The notes beneath the pieces are model-generated. The model was given only the letters and a program-made list of their open reading frames with translations. It searched no databases and was not told the origin of the DNA. Below are positions 17,155 to 24,076 of a stretch of 64,000 bases of DNA, one piece after another. The DNA comes from Caldifarciminota bacterium (GTDB lineage: Bacteria; Hydrothermota; Hydrothermia; UBA1063; CAJXJZ01), in assembly GCA_026986775.1 (NCBI GenBank), contig JALSNX010000003.1:62001-126000 (forward strand), written 5' to 3'. A program made the position numbers and the translations under genes. Numbering within the stretch: the first letter of the stretch is position 1; each line of letters begins with the position of its first letter.

Positions 17155-17646
17155 TTATTGCTCCATTTTCTCCTTAAGTTCCATAATAAGAGATTTAAGT
17201 TCAGCAACCTGTTTCCTCAAATCCTGAACCTCAAGTTTCAGCCTTCTTATATCCTCATTTTCTCCCTCGTGGTGTGGCCCATGGTGTTCATGAGAAGATG
17301 ACCGGGCCTCTTCGTAGTGATATTCACCCTCAAGTATTTCCTTTAAAACATCTTTCACCTTTCCATAAGCACCCACTAAAGGCTTTATCCCGTATTGTTT
17401 GAAAAACTCCTGCGCTCTCGGTCCCATGCCACCTGTAACAATCACATCAGCACCGAGGGTATGTATAAATTGAGGAAGTTCTCCCGGATTGTGTGCCTCT
17501 TTATACGGATTTTCAATAGACTGCACCTTTTTAATTACATTGCCATCAGTAATATCCACTATAACGAAGTAGGAGCAGTGGCCAAAGTGATAACTCACCA
17601 CACTTTCAAGGTCATTTGCATCATCAGCAGTAAATGCTATCTTCAT
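17155..17646 (-). CDS. NifX/NifB-type dinitrogenase cofactor-binding-like protein with His-rich linker
   Basis: This 163-residue protein has the NifX/VnfX-type domain at residues 1-~105 (MKIAFTADD start, SYHFGHCSYFVIVD, GADVIVTGGMGPRAQEFF). A histidine-rich linker (SSSHEHHGPHHEGEN) and a C-terminal coiled coil of about 40 residues follow. The NifX-like fold binds iron-sulfur or iron-molybdenum precursors in nitrogenase systems, but stand-alone copies in organisms without nitrogenase have unknown roles. The histidines suggest metal binding. GGAGG lies upstream of the ATG. It precedes the PadR gene by two bases. Confidence 0.85.
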   Translation of the reverse strand: MKIAFTADDANDLESVVSYHFGHCSYFVIVDITDGNVIKKVQSIENPYKEAHNPGELPQFIHTLGADVIVTGGMGPRAQEFFKQYGIKPLVGAYGKVKDVLKEILEGEYHYEEARSSSHEHHGPHHEGENEDIRRLKLEVQDLRKQVAELKSLIMELKEKMEQ

Positions 17647-18132: not shown

Positions 18133-18141
18133 TTTAAAAAT

Positions 18142-18216
18142 CGGGGCGTAGCGCAGCTTGGTTAGCGCACCAGCATGGGGGGCTGGGGGTCGGTGGTTCG
18201 AGTCCACTCGCCCCGA
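18142..18216 (+). tRNA. tRNA-Pro (anticodon GGG)
   Basis: The acceptor stem is CGGGGCG/CGCCCCG and the anticodon arm CCAGC-ATGGGGG-GCTGG with anticodon GGG, decoding CCC/CCU. The T arm is GGTGG-TTCGAGT-CCACT with one mismatch, and the discriminator is A. No CCA is encoded. It starts 9 bases after tRNA-Val. A run of eight T residues follows and may help termination. Confidence 0.95.
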
Positions 18217-18242
18217 TTTTTTTTATTTACAGGAGTAAAACA

Positions 18243-18860
18243 ATGAGAAAAGCCCTTATTCTGTTGTTTTTTGCAGTGTTTTTGTACGGTAAAACGCCAC
18301 AATACATTTTTCAGGTCTGGAAGCCATACAAATTCTCTGCAAACGAGTATTATGAATATGAACTAAATAGTGTAAGCAAACAAAGTAAGCCCAGAACAGG
18401 CCACTACACAATAAGGATAGAAAAAGTCAAAAACGGCTACAGGGTCAGTTTAAAGGGAAAATACATGTTCAGTCAGGGCTCTTTTAGCGGTGTAGTCCCC
18501 TCTTTAGATTCAGTTGTTCCCTTTATAATGAAGAAAACCCTTTACTCAAGCACATTTACCCTGTTTTCAAGATTTGTAGTTAACGAAATGTTTAAGCCCG
18601 GTTCCATAACAGAAAAACTCAAATGGCAGAATGGAAGTTCAGTCAAATTTAGCAATGGTGGATTAAGGGAAGTAAAAGGAGACTGTGAATTTGGAGGATA
18701 TAAAGGGAAGTGGATTATAACCTACCGCAATAACACAGAGATTGACAGAGCCTGCATATCCCCTGATGTCCCCATGCCCATTTATGTGAAAGCATATAAC
18801 CCCATAAATCCCCAGAAAACCTATGCAGAGGTGAAACTCAAAAGATACAAAAAAGAGTAA
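18243..18860 (+). CDS. Secreted protein of unknown function
   Basis: I do not recognise the family. The 205-residue protein starts with a clear signal peptide (residues 1-16, KALILLFFAVFLYG) and then contains alternating beta-strand-like segments with many aromatic and basic residues. Two cysteines (in GDCEF and DRACIS) could pair. It resembles small periplasmic beta-rich proteins such as DUF3108 only in general character. AGGAG lies upstream of the start. It may be co-transcribed with the tRNAs and is followed by a weak hairpin. Confidence 0.75.
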   Translation: MRKALILLFFAVFLYGKTPQYIFQVWKPYKFSANEYYEYELNSVSKQSKPRTGHYTIRIEKVKNGYRVSLKGKYMFSQGSFSGVVPSLDSVVPFIMKKTLYSSTFTLFSRFVVNEMFKPGSITEKLKWQNGSSVKFSNGGLREVKGDCEFGGYKGKWIITYRNNTEIDRACISPDVPMPIYVKAYNPINPQKTYAEVKLKRYKKE

Positions 18861-18868
18861 AAACGGGC

Positions 18869-18892
18869 AATCTCTGAAGCACAGAGATTTTC
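18869..18892 (+). terminator. Weak terminator after the secreted protein gene
   Basis: The perfect 8-bp stem AATCTCTG / CAGAGATT has a five-base loop. It is AT-rich and is followed by only a short T run. Confidence 0.45.
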
Positions 18893-18968
18893 GCAAAAGC
18901 ATGAAACACTTTTAACTTCACATATCACACATGCCAGCATGGTGCACGTTCGTTGAATTTAAATTAAA

Positions 18969-18987
18969 TGTTCATGTATCATGAACA
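18969..18987. repeat. Perfect palindrome TGTTCATG-TAT-CATGAACA
   Basis: An 8-bp perfect inverted repeat around three bases in non-coding DNA. It has the size and symmetry of a dimeric repressor site. No intact gene lies directly downstream, so it may be the leftover operator of the decayed gene whose tail follows. Confidence 0.5.
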
Positions 18988-19046
18988 AAACGAAATGGTG
19001 AACAATAGGAGTGTTGTTGAAGGTGGGTAGGGTGAATTTGTGTTGA

Positions 19047-19205
19047 GGTTCATTTCCTGCTGGACATGATTTAAAAGAGTTGCGTTCAGGGGATATGGAA
19101 GAGGTCTTTGAGAAATATCTGGCAAAATGTTCTGAACTTAAACTGGATGAAAAAGAGACGATGCTTTTAGATTGTTTCAAAAGAGGGTTCAGTTATAGTG
19201 AATAG
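19047..19205 (+). pseudogene. Gene remnant, possibly C-terminus of an SbcD-like DNA repair exonuclease
   Basis: An open frame of about 52 codons without a start encodes HDLKELRSGDMEEVFEKYL, then KLDEKETMLLDCFKRGF, and ends at TAG. It is amphipathic and charged like real protein. The pattern (L-K-E-L-R-x-G-x-x-E-E-V-F-E-x-Y-L) recalls the C-terminal end of SbcD/MRE11-type exonucleases. Upstream the frame is closed by stops and nothing else of such a gene is seen. The identification is weak. Confidence 0.3.
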
Positions 19206-19245
19206 GTATTTTTGCATGGAAGCTTATAAAGTTAATCCATTTTAC

Positions 19246-19274
19246 TTGACAATACATGCTGTTAAGTGTATAAT
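19246..19274 (+). promoter_or_regulatory. Near-perfect sigma-70 promoter of the nucleotidyltransferase-nuclease pair
   Basis: TTGACA (19246-19251), 17 bases, TATAAT (19269-19274): both boxes match the consensus exactly, the strongest promoter in the window. It drives the two-gene accessory system and is covered by palindromic sequence. Confidence 0.85.
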
Positions 19275-19282
19275 ACACTTAA
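19262..19282. promoter_or_regulatory. Palindromic operator centred on the -10 box
   Basis: A 21-base perfect palindrome: TTAAGTGTAT, central A, ATACACTTAA. It contains the -10 box. A further inverted copy of the half site (ACACTTAAC, 19297-19305) lies between the transcription start and the ATG, facing GTTAAGTGT at 19261. This layout is typical of a tightly autorepressed promoter such as that of a toxin-antitoxin module. Confidence 0.75.
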
Positions 19283-19306
19283 AATTAGTGGGGAGAACAC
19301 TTAACA

Positions 19307-19899
19307 ATGCTTATAGTTGAGCAAATGGATGAAATTTTTGAGGCACTTGAACGCCAGATTCGGGAAGAAGAGGGAGAAAGAGTATCTCTGGTCATCATAG
19401 GAGGAACTGCACTGGCTGCACTGGGCGTTTTGTCAGGCGGTTTACCAAAGATGTGGATGTTCTGGGAGAGGTAATTGAACAACATGATAGAATGGTAATA
19501 CAAAAGATTGAACAGTTTCCTCTGTTTTTAGAAAGAGCAATTAAGAAAGTAGCAAGGGATTTTGCTCTTCCTGATAACTGGATGAATTTAGGTCCTGCAT
19601 CTCAATTGGATCTGGGACTTCCAGAGGGATTTTCCAATCGTTTGATTCGTAAGGAGTACGGTTCTCATCTCGTGCTTTACTTTGCAGGACGTAAAGATTT
19701 GATTCATTTTAAGTTATTTGCTGCAGTGGACAGGGATGATTATCATGTAAAAGACCTTTTTGCGCTGAAACCAACAAAAGAGGAGCTTTTAGAGGCAGCA
19801 AGATGGACATTGACGCAGGATGTTTCTCTGGAATTTCGCACATTACTTGAACAGTTTCTGCAGGAAAAAGGATACGAAGATGTTGCCGAACGACTTTAA
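19307..19899 (+). pseudogene. AbiEii/DUF6036-like nucleotidyltransferase, frameshifted
   Basis: The ATG at 19307 (GGGGAG upstream) opens a frame giving EQMDEIFEALERQIREEEG, then VIIGGTALAALGVL. The protein then continues in a second frame from about base 19433: RRFTKDVDVLGEVI through to the stop at 19899. Together they form about 197 residues with the nucleotidyltransferase pattern GG(T)AL...TKDVDVL and the downstream RKDLIHFKLFAAVDRDDYHVKDL seen in DUF6036/AbiEii-type proteins. One missing base, a sequencing error, or -1 ribosomal slippage around TTTTG would restore the frame. Family members are toxins of type IV-like systems or antitoxin modifiers. The 3' end overlaps the next gene by 20 bases. 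Confidence 0.75.
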
Positions 19900-21205
19900 C
19901 CAGCAATTTTCACAATTAATAGCATCTTTTTTATGGGACCAATGGAAAAAGTTAGGTATAGCAGTATGGGACAGTAAGAATAATGGCTTAAGCTGGTTAA
20001 TTGACCCTGAGGCTCTAATTCTTGCATCATCTTCATTGCAGGGTGAGGACCCTCATCTTTTTCATGTTATGCAGAAATGGATGGGAACTTATCATCGCCT
20101 TCTTCATACGGCGCGGATAAGGAGATTATGGAAGCAGTATTTAAGCCTCGCAAAAAAAATGAAAATTCCAGTATATGGATATATTGATGTGCAGAGCTGG
20201 ATATCTAAAAGGGATAGTTTCAGGGAGAAAGAAATACTTTCTGTTCCTCGCTGGGAAGACTCAAGCCTTCTCTGGTTAAAACTCCGCTCGCTTTTAGGAA
20301 GTGGTGTAAGGTCAGATACGCTGATTTATTTTTTATACCATGACATTGGCACAACTTTCTCCATTTCGCGGGAAATGTTTATTGACCAGAGAAGTGTTCA
20401 TGACATAATCCGTATATGGGAGTCTGTTGGATGGGTACGCCGATTTGGACAAAAAAGAGGATACGTTATTGCGCCCTCTTTTCGGGACAATCTTTTAAAA
20501 ATAGTTGAAATTGAGAAAGTTCCTGCATGGTTTAATGCTGGAAGGGTATTTACAGGGATGCTTCTTGTAAAGGGGGCCATAGAGAGGTTTGCTGAGCATC
20601 AGGATATGTACCTTTTATCTTCCCACTTCCGTGATATACTTCCATTACTAACTGAAATATGGGAGATAACAAAAGTTAAGTATCCCAATCCCATATCACA
20701 CCCGGGGAAAGAATACGTTTCAGTATTTTTACAATCAATTATGGAAGCGTGTGAGCAATTGGGTCGCTCATTGGAAACTTCTAAAACTACGAGGTCAAAG
20801 TTAGAGTCCGATACTACCGAATATAAAAATACGGTTGTTGAAAAGAACAGGTTTATTGAGTTTGATTTGCATAATGCAGCATACAGGGCGCTCAGGCGAC
20901 GTTACCCTGCAAGTGAAGGATGGAGTATTATTCCAGAGTTTGGAAGTGATAAATATCGTATTGATTTTGTGGTGGAAAAGAGAGATTCTTCAGGGAAAAT
21001 CCATCGCATTGTTGTAGAGGTTAAAGCAACATGCATAATAGAGCGGGAGGCTATATACCAGTTGGAGCATTATGCAGGGCATCTTGCTGACCCAAATGTG
21101 AAAATTGATGGTAAAATCCTTATAGTTCCTTACGGTGCCAGGTTAAGCGCTGCCCTTCCTGAGGATGTTAAAGTTATTTACTTAAGGAGTTTTAGATGTG
21201 GTTAA
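19880..21205 (+). CDS. HTH protein with C-terminal PD-(D/E)XK nuclease-like domain
   Basis: I do not recognise a named family for the whole protein (441 residues). Residues ~1-135 are helical and unassigned. Residues ~140-198 look like a winged helix (TFSISREMFIDQRSVHDIIRIW, then VGWVRRFGQKRGYVI). Residues ~323-441 carry a restriction-endonuclease fold pattern: IIPEFG (E353), YRIDFVVE (D362), RIVVEVKA (E380-x-K382) and YQLEHYAG (Q394). I chose the ATG at 19880, with AAGGA 7 bases upstream, over an in-frame ATG at 19820 deep inside the partner gene. CGN arginine codons are far more common here than in the surrounding AGA/AGG-rich genes, a sign of transfer. It could be the DNA-binding antitoxin and regulator of the nucleotidyltransferase, a nuclease effector, or both. 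Confidence 0.8.
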   Translation: MLPNDFNQQFSQLIASFLWDQWKKLGIAVWDSKNNGLSWLIDPEALILASSSLQGEDPHLFHVMQKWMGTYHRLLHTARIRRLWKQYLSLAKKMKIPVYGYIDVQSWISKRDSFREKEILSVPRWEDSSLLWLKLRSLLGSGVRSDTLIYFLYHDIGTTFSISREMFIDQRSVHDIIRIWESVGWVRRFGQKRGYVIAPSFRDNLLKIVEIEKVPAWFNAGRVFTGMLLVKGAIERFAEHQDMYLLSSHFRDILPLLTEIWEITKVKYPNPISHPGKEYVSVFLQSIMEACEQLGRSLETSKTTRSKLESDTTEYKNTVVEKNRFIEFDLHNAAYRALRRRYPASEGWSIIPEFGSDKYRIDFVVEKRDSSGKIHRIVVEVKATCIIEREAIYQLEHYAGHLADPNVKIDGKILIVPYGARLSAALPEDVKVIYLRSFRCG

Positions 21206-21253
21206 GGAAAATGTTTGGGGTTTGTGATCATAATTCCTCCCTGAGCCTCTAAC

Positions 21254-21282
21254 TTGACCTTCTAAATTATTTTAATTAAAAT
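21254..21282 (+). promoter_or_regulatory. Promoter of the ankyrin gene, leaderless-type
   Basis: TTGACC (21254-21259), 17 bases, TAAAAT (21277-21282). The ATG at 21291 is only 8 bases past the -10 box and has no Shine-Dalgarno, so the transcript would start at the start codon. Confidence 0.65.
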
Positions 21283-21290
21283 AGATTATT

Positions 21291-24053
21291 ATGAAGAAGC
21301 ACAGAAGGAAACTCATAGAAATAGAAGGTTATAATAAGGGCTATAAAAGCCCATTTTTTCGTGAAAAAGACCCATCAATAAAGGATAGAGAAAACGCACT
21401 TTTAAAAAGGGTAGCTGGCACATACATAAAAAAAGAGCACAGAAAGGCGGTAATAATCCCCTTCAGGGAAAAAAGATATACAAATAAGATAACAGAGGAT
21501 GGGAAAAGTGGGCTTTTAGACGCCTTCAATTTCAGGATTAAGAGCATAGTTTCTGTTTTAACCGGATTGTTATTAACCGTAACACCCCTTTTAGCACAGG
21601 GCAAGGCACATAACAAAAATGAGAAGAGCCAAAAGAAAAAGACGTGGGAGTTAAAGGTTGATGTGCCACTTTATTATTTTGAGAAGGCAAATACTTCAAT
21701 AGAGGAACTTGAATACTCTGTTCCTCCAATGGACACTGTTTATTTTGATCCAGATGAATATGAGTATTTCTTCGGTAAAAGAATAAAAGGGGTTGGCGCT
21801 TTTGAGAGAGGCGGGATGATTAAATATTTAGAAGAAAAATATGGAGTTAAATACACTGGCTTAAGGTTGGGACTAGCAGTTTCAAATGCGCTTGTCGACT
21901 ATTATAATTATCTAAAATCAATTGGTTATGATGTTGGAAGGATGAAGAAGGATATGAAGGATTTTAAATTAGCTGTTGATTACTTATCCGGTAAGTTTTC
22001 AGTAGATGAGGGAAAATTGAAAGGTCTTATGACGCCTAAGAAGATATTAGCAGCGGAAGATGATAACTATTGGTACTACTTTTGGCCAAGATCACCAGCA
22101 TTTGTTGTTGAGGAAGGCGAAGGAAAGAAGAAAAAAGAAGTCTTCGGCACTGTGGCCGGAGCCTTAGATTTCATAACAATCCCAAAAACCGACCCAGAAG
22201 CAAGAGAGATATTTTTGAATGGAGGATTAAAGGAGCTTGCTAAGTTGGTTGGAGATAAAAGAGTTATATTTAGACATTGGTATGAGGAGATGAACATAAG
22301 AACAATGATGGCAAGGTTTGGAGATGGCCTTGACTATGATGGTACAACTAGGGTAGGATTAGAATCGTTCCAATTTGAAGATAAATATGGCCATAAAATG
22401 GCATGTATCGTTGAAGTAGTAAATCACACATCCCCAAAAAAAGCAGGATTGATAATGATTCATCTAAATGGCATCTCATACGTCATGCAGCATGGTGATG
22501 TAGGTATATCTGATATAGGATTTTTCAGAGATACTCATGATCATAAATATGATCCAAATGTTATTGCTGCAGGTAACCAAATCGTTGCCTATGGTGTTGA
22601 ACCTCTTGTTGATAAAGACGGACACATGAAAGGTATTGTTGTTGGATGGAAATTGAATACTGGAAAGATGTATGGAGTTGCTTTTTGGCCCAAGAACCAA
22701 AAGATAACATCCATATCAGATATAATAGAATTGGTAGTTCCTCCCTTTACCCCTGCTGACTCTCTATCCTATGCTATCAAAGAGAATGACATAAAGCGGG
22801 CTCTGGAACTTATTGATAGAGGGGTTGATGTTAACAAAAAGGACCCTTATGGCAAGACACCTCTTATCTACGCTCTACAAAGGCATGATACAATGCTAAC
22901 ACGGGTTCTCATAGAGCATGGTGCGGATGTAAATGTTAAAGATGAATTTACCGGTAAGACACCGATTTTCTATACTGTTCTTGAGGAGGATACGGTCTCT
23001 GCCGCATATATTGTAAAGCACGGCGCAGGTGTTGACGAGGTTGATAAGGATGGCAATACGCCTCTTATATATGCTGTTTTAAACAATAAACCTCTTATGG
23101 TAAAGTTCCTTCTTGAACACGGTGCTTCTGTGAACAGGAAAGGTGAAAATGGCTTCATACCCCTTATTTTTTCTGTCAAAGAAGGTTATTCTGAAGTTGC
23201 ACGGCTACTTATTGAGCACGGTGCCGATGTGAATATAGCTGATAATGATAAATACACACCGTTATGCTACGCGGCAGAAAAAGGTCTTACTGATGTGGTA
23301 AAACTTCTTGTGCAACATAATGCAAGCATGGAAAGATGCGGAAAGGAGGATATGCGTCCTATTGACCTTGCTGCATTACGGGGATATCTTGACATAGTTA
23401 AATACCTTGTTAAACACGGTAATGACTTAAAAAACGAGTGCCGGGATGAGGAACATCCCTGTGTTTTACATTTTGCTGCCCGGGGAGGAAATCTTGATAT
23501 AGTTAAATACCTTGTGGAAAATGGTGTTGATATACATGCCATTTATAATGTGAATCTGATGGGGGATGGAACAACAATACTTCATGAAGCGGCATCTTCT
23601 GGCAACCTTGAACTTGTTAAATACATTGTTAACAACGGTGTTTCGGTGAACAAAAAGGACAGTAAAGGTAGAACACCGGTTTATTATGCTATTGAGCATG
23701 GACATCTGGATATTTTGAAATATCTTGTTCAACAGGGGGCAGAACTCAACGATAAACTTAGGTTTGAGGATAAAAAGACTGCATTGCACATCGCCGCTGA
23801 AATAGGGGACACTGATATAATAAATTATTTGATTTATAAAGGTTTTGACGTAAACAAAAAAGATAAAAAGGGATGGAGCCCTGTATTTTATGCTGTCAAG
23901 AATGGCAATCTTAATGCTCTTAAGTGCCTCGTAAAACACGGTGCACGTCTGGACATCAGGGATAAATCAAAAAAATCTCTTATTCAGGTTGCAAAAGAAT
24001 ATCATTGGGATAAGATTGTGGAATACTTAAAAGGCCTTGGCCTTAAAGATTAG
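21291..24053 (+). CDS. Membrane-anchored ankyrin-repeat protein with unknown N-terminal domain
   Basis: A 920-residue protein. Residues 1-80 are very basic and charged, residues 83-102 are one hydrophobic segment (KSIVSVLTGLLLTVTPLLAQG), residues ~110-480 form a domain I do not recognise, and residues ~485-918 hold about 13 ankyrin repeats (for example TPLIYAVLNNKPLMVKFLLEHG). The hydrophobic stretch resembles a signal sequence but comes unusually late, so a signal anchor with an 80-residue cytoplasmic tail is likely. No start codon exists just before it, and the promoter 8 bases upstream supports the ATG used. The repeats would face the periplasm or outside. Ankyrin repeats mediate protein binding, and the partner is unknown. 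It lies next to the nuclease-like accessory pair but has its own promoter. Confidence 0.82.
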   Translation: MKKHRRKLIEIEGYNKGYKSPFFREKDPSIKDRENALLKRVAGTYIKKEHRKAVIIPFREKRYTNKITEDGKSGLLDAFNFRIKSIVSVLTGLLLTVTPLLAQGKAHNKNEKSQKKKTWELKVDVPLYYFEKANTSIEELEYSVPPMDTVYFDPDEYEYFFGKRIKGVGAFERGGMIKYLEEKYGVKYTGLRLGLAVSNALVDYYNYLKSIGYDVGRMKKDMKDFKLAVDYLSGKFSVDEGKLKGLMTPKKILAAEDDNYWYYFWPRSPAFVVEEGEGKKKKEVFGTVAGALDFITIPKTDPEAREIFLNGGLKELAKLVGDKRVIFRHWYEEMNIRTMMARFGDGLDYDGTTRVGLESFQFEDKYGHKMACIVEVVNHTSPKKAGLIMIHLNGISYVMQHGDVGISDIGFFRDTHDHKYDPNVIAAGNQIVAYGVEPLVDKDGHMKGIVVGWKLNTGKMYGVAFWPKNQKITSISDIIELVVPPFTPADSLSYAIKENDIKRALELIDRGVDVNKKDPYGKTPLIYALQRHDTMLTRVLIEHGADVNVKDEFTGKTPIFYTVLEEDTVSAAYIVKHGAGVDEVDKDGNTPLIYAVLNNKPLMVKFLLEHGASVNRKGENGFIPLIFSVKEGYSEVARLLIEHGADVNIADNDKYTPLCYAAEKGLTDVVKLLVQHNASMERCGKEDMRPIDLAALRGYLDIVKYLVKHGNDLKNECRDEEHPCVLHFAARGGNLDIVKYLVENGVDIHAIYNVNLMGDGTTILHEAASSGNLELVKYIVNNGVSVNKKDSKGRTPVYYAIEHGHLDILKYLVQQGAELNDKLRFEDKKTALHIAAEIGDTDIINYLIYKGFDVNKKDKKGWSPVFYAVKNGNLNALKCLVKHGARLDIRDKSKKSLIQVAKEYHWDKIVEYLKGLGLKD

Positions 24054-24076
24054 CGTCTCTCTTTACTTTACAGTTT

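Follow-up and report, generated by a model that had tools for sequence, protein, structure and literature searches.

Two overlapping genes behind a consensus promoter in the genome of an uncultured WOR-3 bacterium raise the question of what kind of system they form, and which of the two partners would need to be held in check. The original prediction, made from one 64,000-nucleotide stretch of DNA (referred to here, at its full length, as the window), described a nucleotidyltransferase (NTase) gene followed by a gene, here called B, whose product combines a winged helix with a restriction-endonuclease-like domain. A defense or toxin–antitoxin role was proposed, with AbiE as the point of comparison and the attached nuclease as the feature that no standard AbiE antitoxin is known to have.

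The pair lies in the 2.18-Mb, 98% complete genome G000, within a 5.9-kb island that starts directly behind the genes for tRNA-Val and tRNA-Pro:

18223..24075, no strand assigned: genomic island, between tRNA-Pro (18141-18217) and a HIT-family gene (24115).

The same-genus genome G001 represents an empty site, in which the same flanks lie ~54 nt apart and the island is absent. In G003, also of the same genus, the interval between the NifX-like and HIT-family genes is filled by a Type I restriction-modification (RM) operon in the order hsdM, NTase, B, KAP NTPase, an unknown gene, hsdS, hsdR and a YgjP-like peptidase. Content between window positions 17155 and 24594 (the NifX-like/rpsT-tRNA/HIT interval) differed in all three genus members examined: G001 has two additional genes to the left of rpsT, and G003 has an RM island that lacks tRNAs; because of this variability, the interval looks like an insertion hotspot. 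CGN accounts for 0.48-0.55 of the arginine codons in the window pair but only 0.04-0.27 in ten other window genes; in G003 the corresponding values are 0.42-0.54 for the pair and 0.16-0.21 for hsdM and hsdR. Since arginine codon use in both genomes is unlike that of the surrounding genes, the pair gives the impression of a cassette that has had a separate history. Recent transfer, originally suggested from CGN-rich codons, gains the empty site in G001 as a second line of evidence, and together these observations support horizontal acquisition of the pair.

As described earlier, the pair is located between a gap and an ankyrin gene. Nothing identifiable was found at 18861-19245, and a 920-aa ankyrin-repeat protein is encoded downstream of the pair at 21291-24053, inside the island. 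The island also encodes a 205-aa protein (18243-18860) that appears to carry a signal peptide and matches no Pfam family. Neither protein has a counterpart in the fetched parts of the interval in G001 or G003. No remnants of hsdM or other RM genes were found beside the window pair, and a search of genome G000 for HsdS gave no Methylase_S match.

The first gene of the pair is split between two reading frames:

19307..19474, + strand: N-terminal part of the NTase, 55 aa including motif I (IGGTAL), ended by a frameshift.
19429..19899, + strand: C-terminal part of the NTase in the other frame, from motif II (TKDVDVL) to the end.

The frame opened by the ATG at 19307 comprises 55 codons and stops at 19472-19474. 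The stretch containing the frameshift measures 17 nt in the window versus 18 nt in four relatives from four families, in all of which the NTase is one continuous 197-aa ORF. The description of two overlapping genes therefore holds in that the ORFs overlap and B is intact, but the first gene is not a single ORF. Programmed frameshifting was considered and rejected, as the site showed no classical slippery heptamer on inspection and the relatives are read in one frame. The frameshift may be erroneous, or it may reflect genuine decay. An assembly or sequencing error in a gene that is intact in nature is a realistic, if less favored, explanation, and one compatible with a toxin–antitoxin reading: the difference amounts to one base in a short stretch, and the remainder of the window NTase keeps all conserved residues. 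Independent NTase losses in other genomes, by frameshift in G026 and by deletion in G126, argue against it by showing that real loss is common.

Alignment of the intact relatives shows the NTase motifs GG-x15-DVD, with an R four residues ahead of the first D, together with a K-L-x-A block and a conserved late D, a set corresponding to motifs I-IV of toxic AbiEii (PMC3985639). The AbiE signature hG[G/S]-x15-DhD, with Arg in motif II, is present in these intact relatives; in the window its motifs fall in different frames. Pfam searches matched DUF6036 in 13/14 members of the NTase family and AbiEii, weakly, in 10/14. The intact G003 NTase scored 40.7 bits for DUF6036 (cut-off 23.6) and 21.3 bits for AbiEii (PF08843; cut-off 22.5), so that the earlier designation as AbiEii/DUF6036-like stands for DUF6036, whereas AbiEii remains below threshold. 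The best fold match of the NTase is MenT1 (8an4), with a probability of 0.99 but only moderate similarity (TM about 0.45, E 0.013). Sequence searches with the NTase found nothing useful among solved structures and no relatives in plasmids or viral contigs, and the literature searched yielded no paper that names the DUF6036 NTase family.

Gene B and its two recognizable domains are located as follows:

19880..21205, + strand: gene B, an intact 441-aa ORF, antitoxin/autorepressor-like with a C-terminal nuclease domain.
20261..20470, + strand: winged helix-turn-helix of B, MarR/TrmB-like, residues about 128-197, by fold prediction.
20852..21202, + strand: PD-(D/E)XK domain of B, EndoMS/NucS-like, residues 325-441, by fold and conserved residues.

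The start of B overlaps the end of the NTase by 20 nt, and the AlphaFold2 model of its product has a mean pLDDT of 88. The winged-helix segment noted earlier is well supported at about residues 128-197, where the model matches MarR-type regulators structurally with a probability of 1.0; additionally, TrmB was matched by 12 of the 27 B members. B and its relatives span about 280-441 aa, with the winged helix in a central position. Similarity to characterized antitoxins was not detectable, a sequence search of solved structures with full-length B gave nothing useful, and no relatives were found in plasmids, phages or viral contigs. Scans of genome contigs returned no match with a single-protein query and only WOR-3 records with an alignment query, and the named close homologs are metagenome-assembled genomes of candidate division WOR-3. 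Other phyla may also have winged-helix partners of a similar kind.

The C-terminal 115 residues of B have EndoMS as their best fold match (probability 1.0, E 0.003), and the domain core shows the helix-strands-helix-strand order and D...(D/E)xK signature that define the PD-(D/E)XK superfamily. Structure prediction thus agrees with the fold originally proposed. Invariant residues are E327, D362, E380-V-K382, Q394 and Y398, a set consistent with a catalytically active PD-(D/E)XK nuclease of QxxxY type. Within the catalytic pattern proposed earlier, D362, E380, K382 and Q394 are conserved, but E353 is not, being Q in three relatives. Several PD-(D/E)XK Pfam models match the domain below their cut-offs, NCBIfam NF003270 (EndoMS/NucS) matches weakly in one of eight domain sequences (E 9e-5), and a search of solved structures with the domain sequence found nothing useful. 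Cas4 was rejected, the Pfam Cas_Cas4 scores of 19.2-22.3 bits lying below the cut-off of 22.7.

A central role for this nuclease does not hold up. Among the genomes searched, only four B proteins carry it, those of the window, G003, G037 and G013, all from one WOR-3 clade, and most B relatives lack it yet are paired with an NTase. Judged by this distribution, the nuclease is an optional addition and not the core of the system. Free-standing relatives of the domain, about 114-160 aa long, occur in family f9 genomes and in G032 (L027-L034, L062). Most of the aligned free-standing versions have another residue in place of the catalytic lysine (EVK to EVV/EVI), and L062 of G032 keeps both EVK and QxxxY.

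Upstream of the pair, a promoter and two dyad-symmetric sites are closely packed:

19246..19274, + strand: sigma-70-type consensus promoter, with -35 TTGACA at 19246-19251, a spacer of 17 and -10 TATAAT at 19269-19274.
19263..19281, no strand assigned: candidate operator O1, TAAGTGTATAATACACTTA, enclosing the -10 box; centre of a 21-bp palindrome at 19262-19282.
19285..19303, no strand assigned: candidate operator O2, TTAGTGGGGAGAACACTTA, offset from O1 by exactly 22 nt in the downstream direction, covering the likely ribosome-binding site and lying at the start codon.

The claim that this is the only perfect-consensus promoter in the window was confirmed: TTGACA-N17-TATAAT at 19246 is the sole match to TTGACA-N(15-19)-TATAAT, and shuffling gives a chance expectation of 0.085 for such a promoter in the window (spacers 16-18). 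The 21-bp palindrome over the -10 box, TTAAGTGTATAATACACTTAA, is identical in G003 and G037, though the surrounding sequence has diverged, and a search of the window's genome allowing up to three mismatches gave a single occurrence. The operator consensus consists of two 19-bp dyads, TWAGK-N9-MCTWA, with 3 bp between them, and their period is exactly 22 nt in 8/8 loci having both sites. An exact dyad is present in 10/14 NTase upstream regions against a shuffle expectation of 0.4% per region, a figure that is somewhat flattering because the consensus was defined by eye on the same loci; the fixed 22-nt period and the absence of the tandem arrangement elsewhere are stronger evidence for an operator. 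Across 320 ORF upstream regions, the dyad matched only seven, all belonging to NTases of this family, and within the sequence fetched, about 747 kb with some redundancy, tandem dyads occurred at pair-related loci only. These loci include the NTase-deleted G077 and G126, where B comes next, as well as a relic in G033. Conservation marks the tandem dyads as an operator. Its retention at loci that have lost the NTase makes B the more likely of the two proteins to bind there.

Among 147 genomes of the WOR-3 phylum, B was matched in 31 (in some only in the nuclease-like domain) and the NTase in 22 (some matches being weak). Full-length NTases of the family were found at 12 loci, two of them in G124, and all overlap an intact B when the count is confined to NTases whose contig continues; in G011 the contig ends inside B. 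The NTase precedes B in every paired locus, so the expected pairing of B homologs with nucleotidyltransferases was indeed observed. B genes without any trace of an NTase occur in G086 and G061, and B may therefore have another role. In G012 (contig 24; L035, 7979-8501), both genes are decayed.

In at least three relatives (G003, G011, G092), the pair is embedded in a Type I RM operon, and in G037 hsdS/hsdR adjoin it. Because many pairs have no RM neighbor, this association, though common within the window's class, does not hold throughout. In G033 (L094, 1434-3778; L037, contig 232), a relic lies between hsdM and a metallo-beta-lactamase/hsdS segment; it retains the operator and the first 16 codons of the NTase, with the rest of the NTase and B gone. 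The RM context of the relatives accords with the defense role originally proposed; the toxin–antitoxin part of that role we infer. The frameshift, the tandem operator and the RM context had not been part of the original prediction. The pair might instead act as an accessory or regulator of Type I RM, in the manner of RptR, which runs a Type I RM island with an embedded toxin–antitoxin system through palindromes over a -10 box (PMC12255303). We regard this as unlikely despite the embedding in several genomes, given that the promoter-operator sits ahead of the NTase and not of hsdM, that many genomes carry the pair without RM genes, and that the arginine codon use of the G003 pair is unlike that of the flanking hsd genes.

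The pattern of gene loss bears on the polarity of the pair. At six loci B is intact but the NTase is not: it carries a frameshift in the window and in G026, only its first 28 and last 20 codons remain in G126, and it has been excised from G077, G125 and G121; operators or near-matches are kept ahead of B at the loci of NTase loss. Against these six NTase losses with B kept, no locus with an intact NTase and a broken B was found. A sign test on six versus none gives a two-sided p of about 0.03, but the losses are few and three of them (G121, G125 and G126) come from one genus, which makes them less than fully independent. When toxin–antitoxin systems decay, it is usually the toxin that is lost and the antitoxin that survives. 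Since the NTase is lost while B and the operator stay, the pattern is suggestive of the NTase as toxin and B as antitoxin/autorepressor. The reverse polarity, with nuclease-bearing B as a toxic effector and the NTase as an antitoxin modifying it, as MntA does in HEPN/MNT, is very improbable: the nuclease signature of B looks intact and MNT-type NTases can be antitoxins (PMC7641770), but most B relatives lack a nuclease and are still paired with an NTase, the NTase is lost while B stays, opposite to the expectation for a toxic B, and no HEPN domain was found in B.

Our preferred reading, held with moderate confidence, is that the locus is a horizontally acquired, autoregulated toxin–antitoxin-like cassette with the NTase as toxin and B as antitoxin and repressor. 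The NTase, with its AbiEii/MenT-like fold and motifs, would probably block growth, and by analogy with known families of this fold it may add nucleotides to tRNA or another target. B would probably serve as both antitoxin and repressor, its central winged helix binding both dyads and thereby burying the -10 box and the ribosome-binding site. Pairs within Type I RM operons may function as a back-up or guard. One clade appears to have gained a NucS-like PD-(D/E)XK domain on B, and since its catalytic signature is complete, the repressor may also cut DNA. That B is fully bifunctional, a toxin-operon repressor and a NucS-like DNA-cutting effector in Type I RM islands forming a two-warhead guard, seems doubtful to us; no description of such a system, combining repressor and DNA-cutting effector, was found in the literature searched. 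In the window, with the NTase frameshifted and no RM specificity gene found in the genome, only B is probably functional, and this copy is probably a half-decayed cassette unless the frameshift is an assembly error.

Comparison with characterized systems places the pair near AbiE but outside it. Similarities include an NTase with the AbiEii motif spacing GG-x15-DhD, a winged-helix partner, and an operon promoter under two inverted repeats that are 3 bp apart in both cases. AbiEi recognizes two inverted repeats of 23 bp with 3 bp between them (PMC7319586), whereas the dyads here are 19-bp palindromes. Further differences are the reversed gene order (antitoxin first in AbiE, NTase first here), a DUF6036 toxin in place of AbiEii (PF08843 being below cut-off), a central winged helix in B (128-197) versus an N-terminal one in AbiEi, and the nuclease domain in one clade; furthermore, no AbiEi families were found among the matches of the 27 B members. 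The proposed AbiE-type pairing thus stands as an NTase with a winged-helix partner, but we consider the pair functionally AbiE/MenAT-like and not a member of AbiE, as NTase family, antitoxin family and gene order all differ.

MenAT1 of Mycobacterium tuberculosis provides the best structural match of the NTase, the tRNA nucleotidyltransferase toxin MenT1, with a similar size of about 195 aa. MenA1, however, has 68 aa and no apparent DNA-binding domain (PMC10435456), in contrast to B and its relatives with a winged helix and about 280-441 aa, and both partner and gene order differ. EndoMS/NucS provides the best fold and the D...ExK...QxxxY layout for the C-terminal domain of B, but here only the nuclease-like domain is present, fused to a winged-helix protein, and the sequence match to NucS is weak and confined to one member. 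The DarTG system under RptR is a toxin–antitoxin system within a Type I RM operon (PMC12255303), and this EPEC island resembles the present loci in that arrangement, in the palindromes over the -10 box and in its metallopeptidase gene. RptR differs in being small, all-helical and a repressor of the whole island, whereas the palindromes here lie ahead of the NTase-B pair, and an NTase takes the place of DarT. The operator, the pairing and the nuclease fusion set the pair apart from these known systems.

These results define a conserved NTase and winged-helix protein pair in WOR-3, marked by a diagnostic tandem operator and located in or beside some Type I RM operons. The operator offers a concrete binding prediction that is testable at once, and the NTase losses yield a testable prediction of which partner is toxic. 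If true, the fusion of a repressor/antitoxin to a PD-(D/E)XK domain would link toxin–antitoxin control to DNA cleavage.
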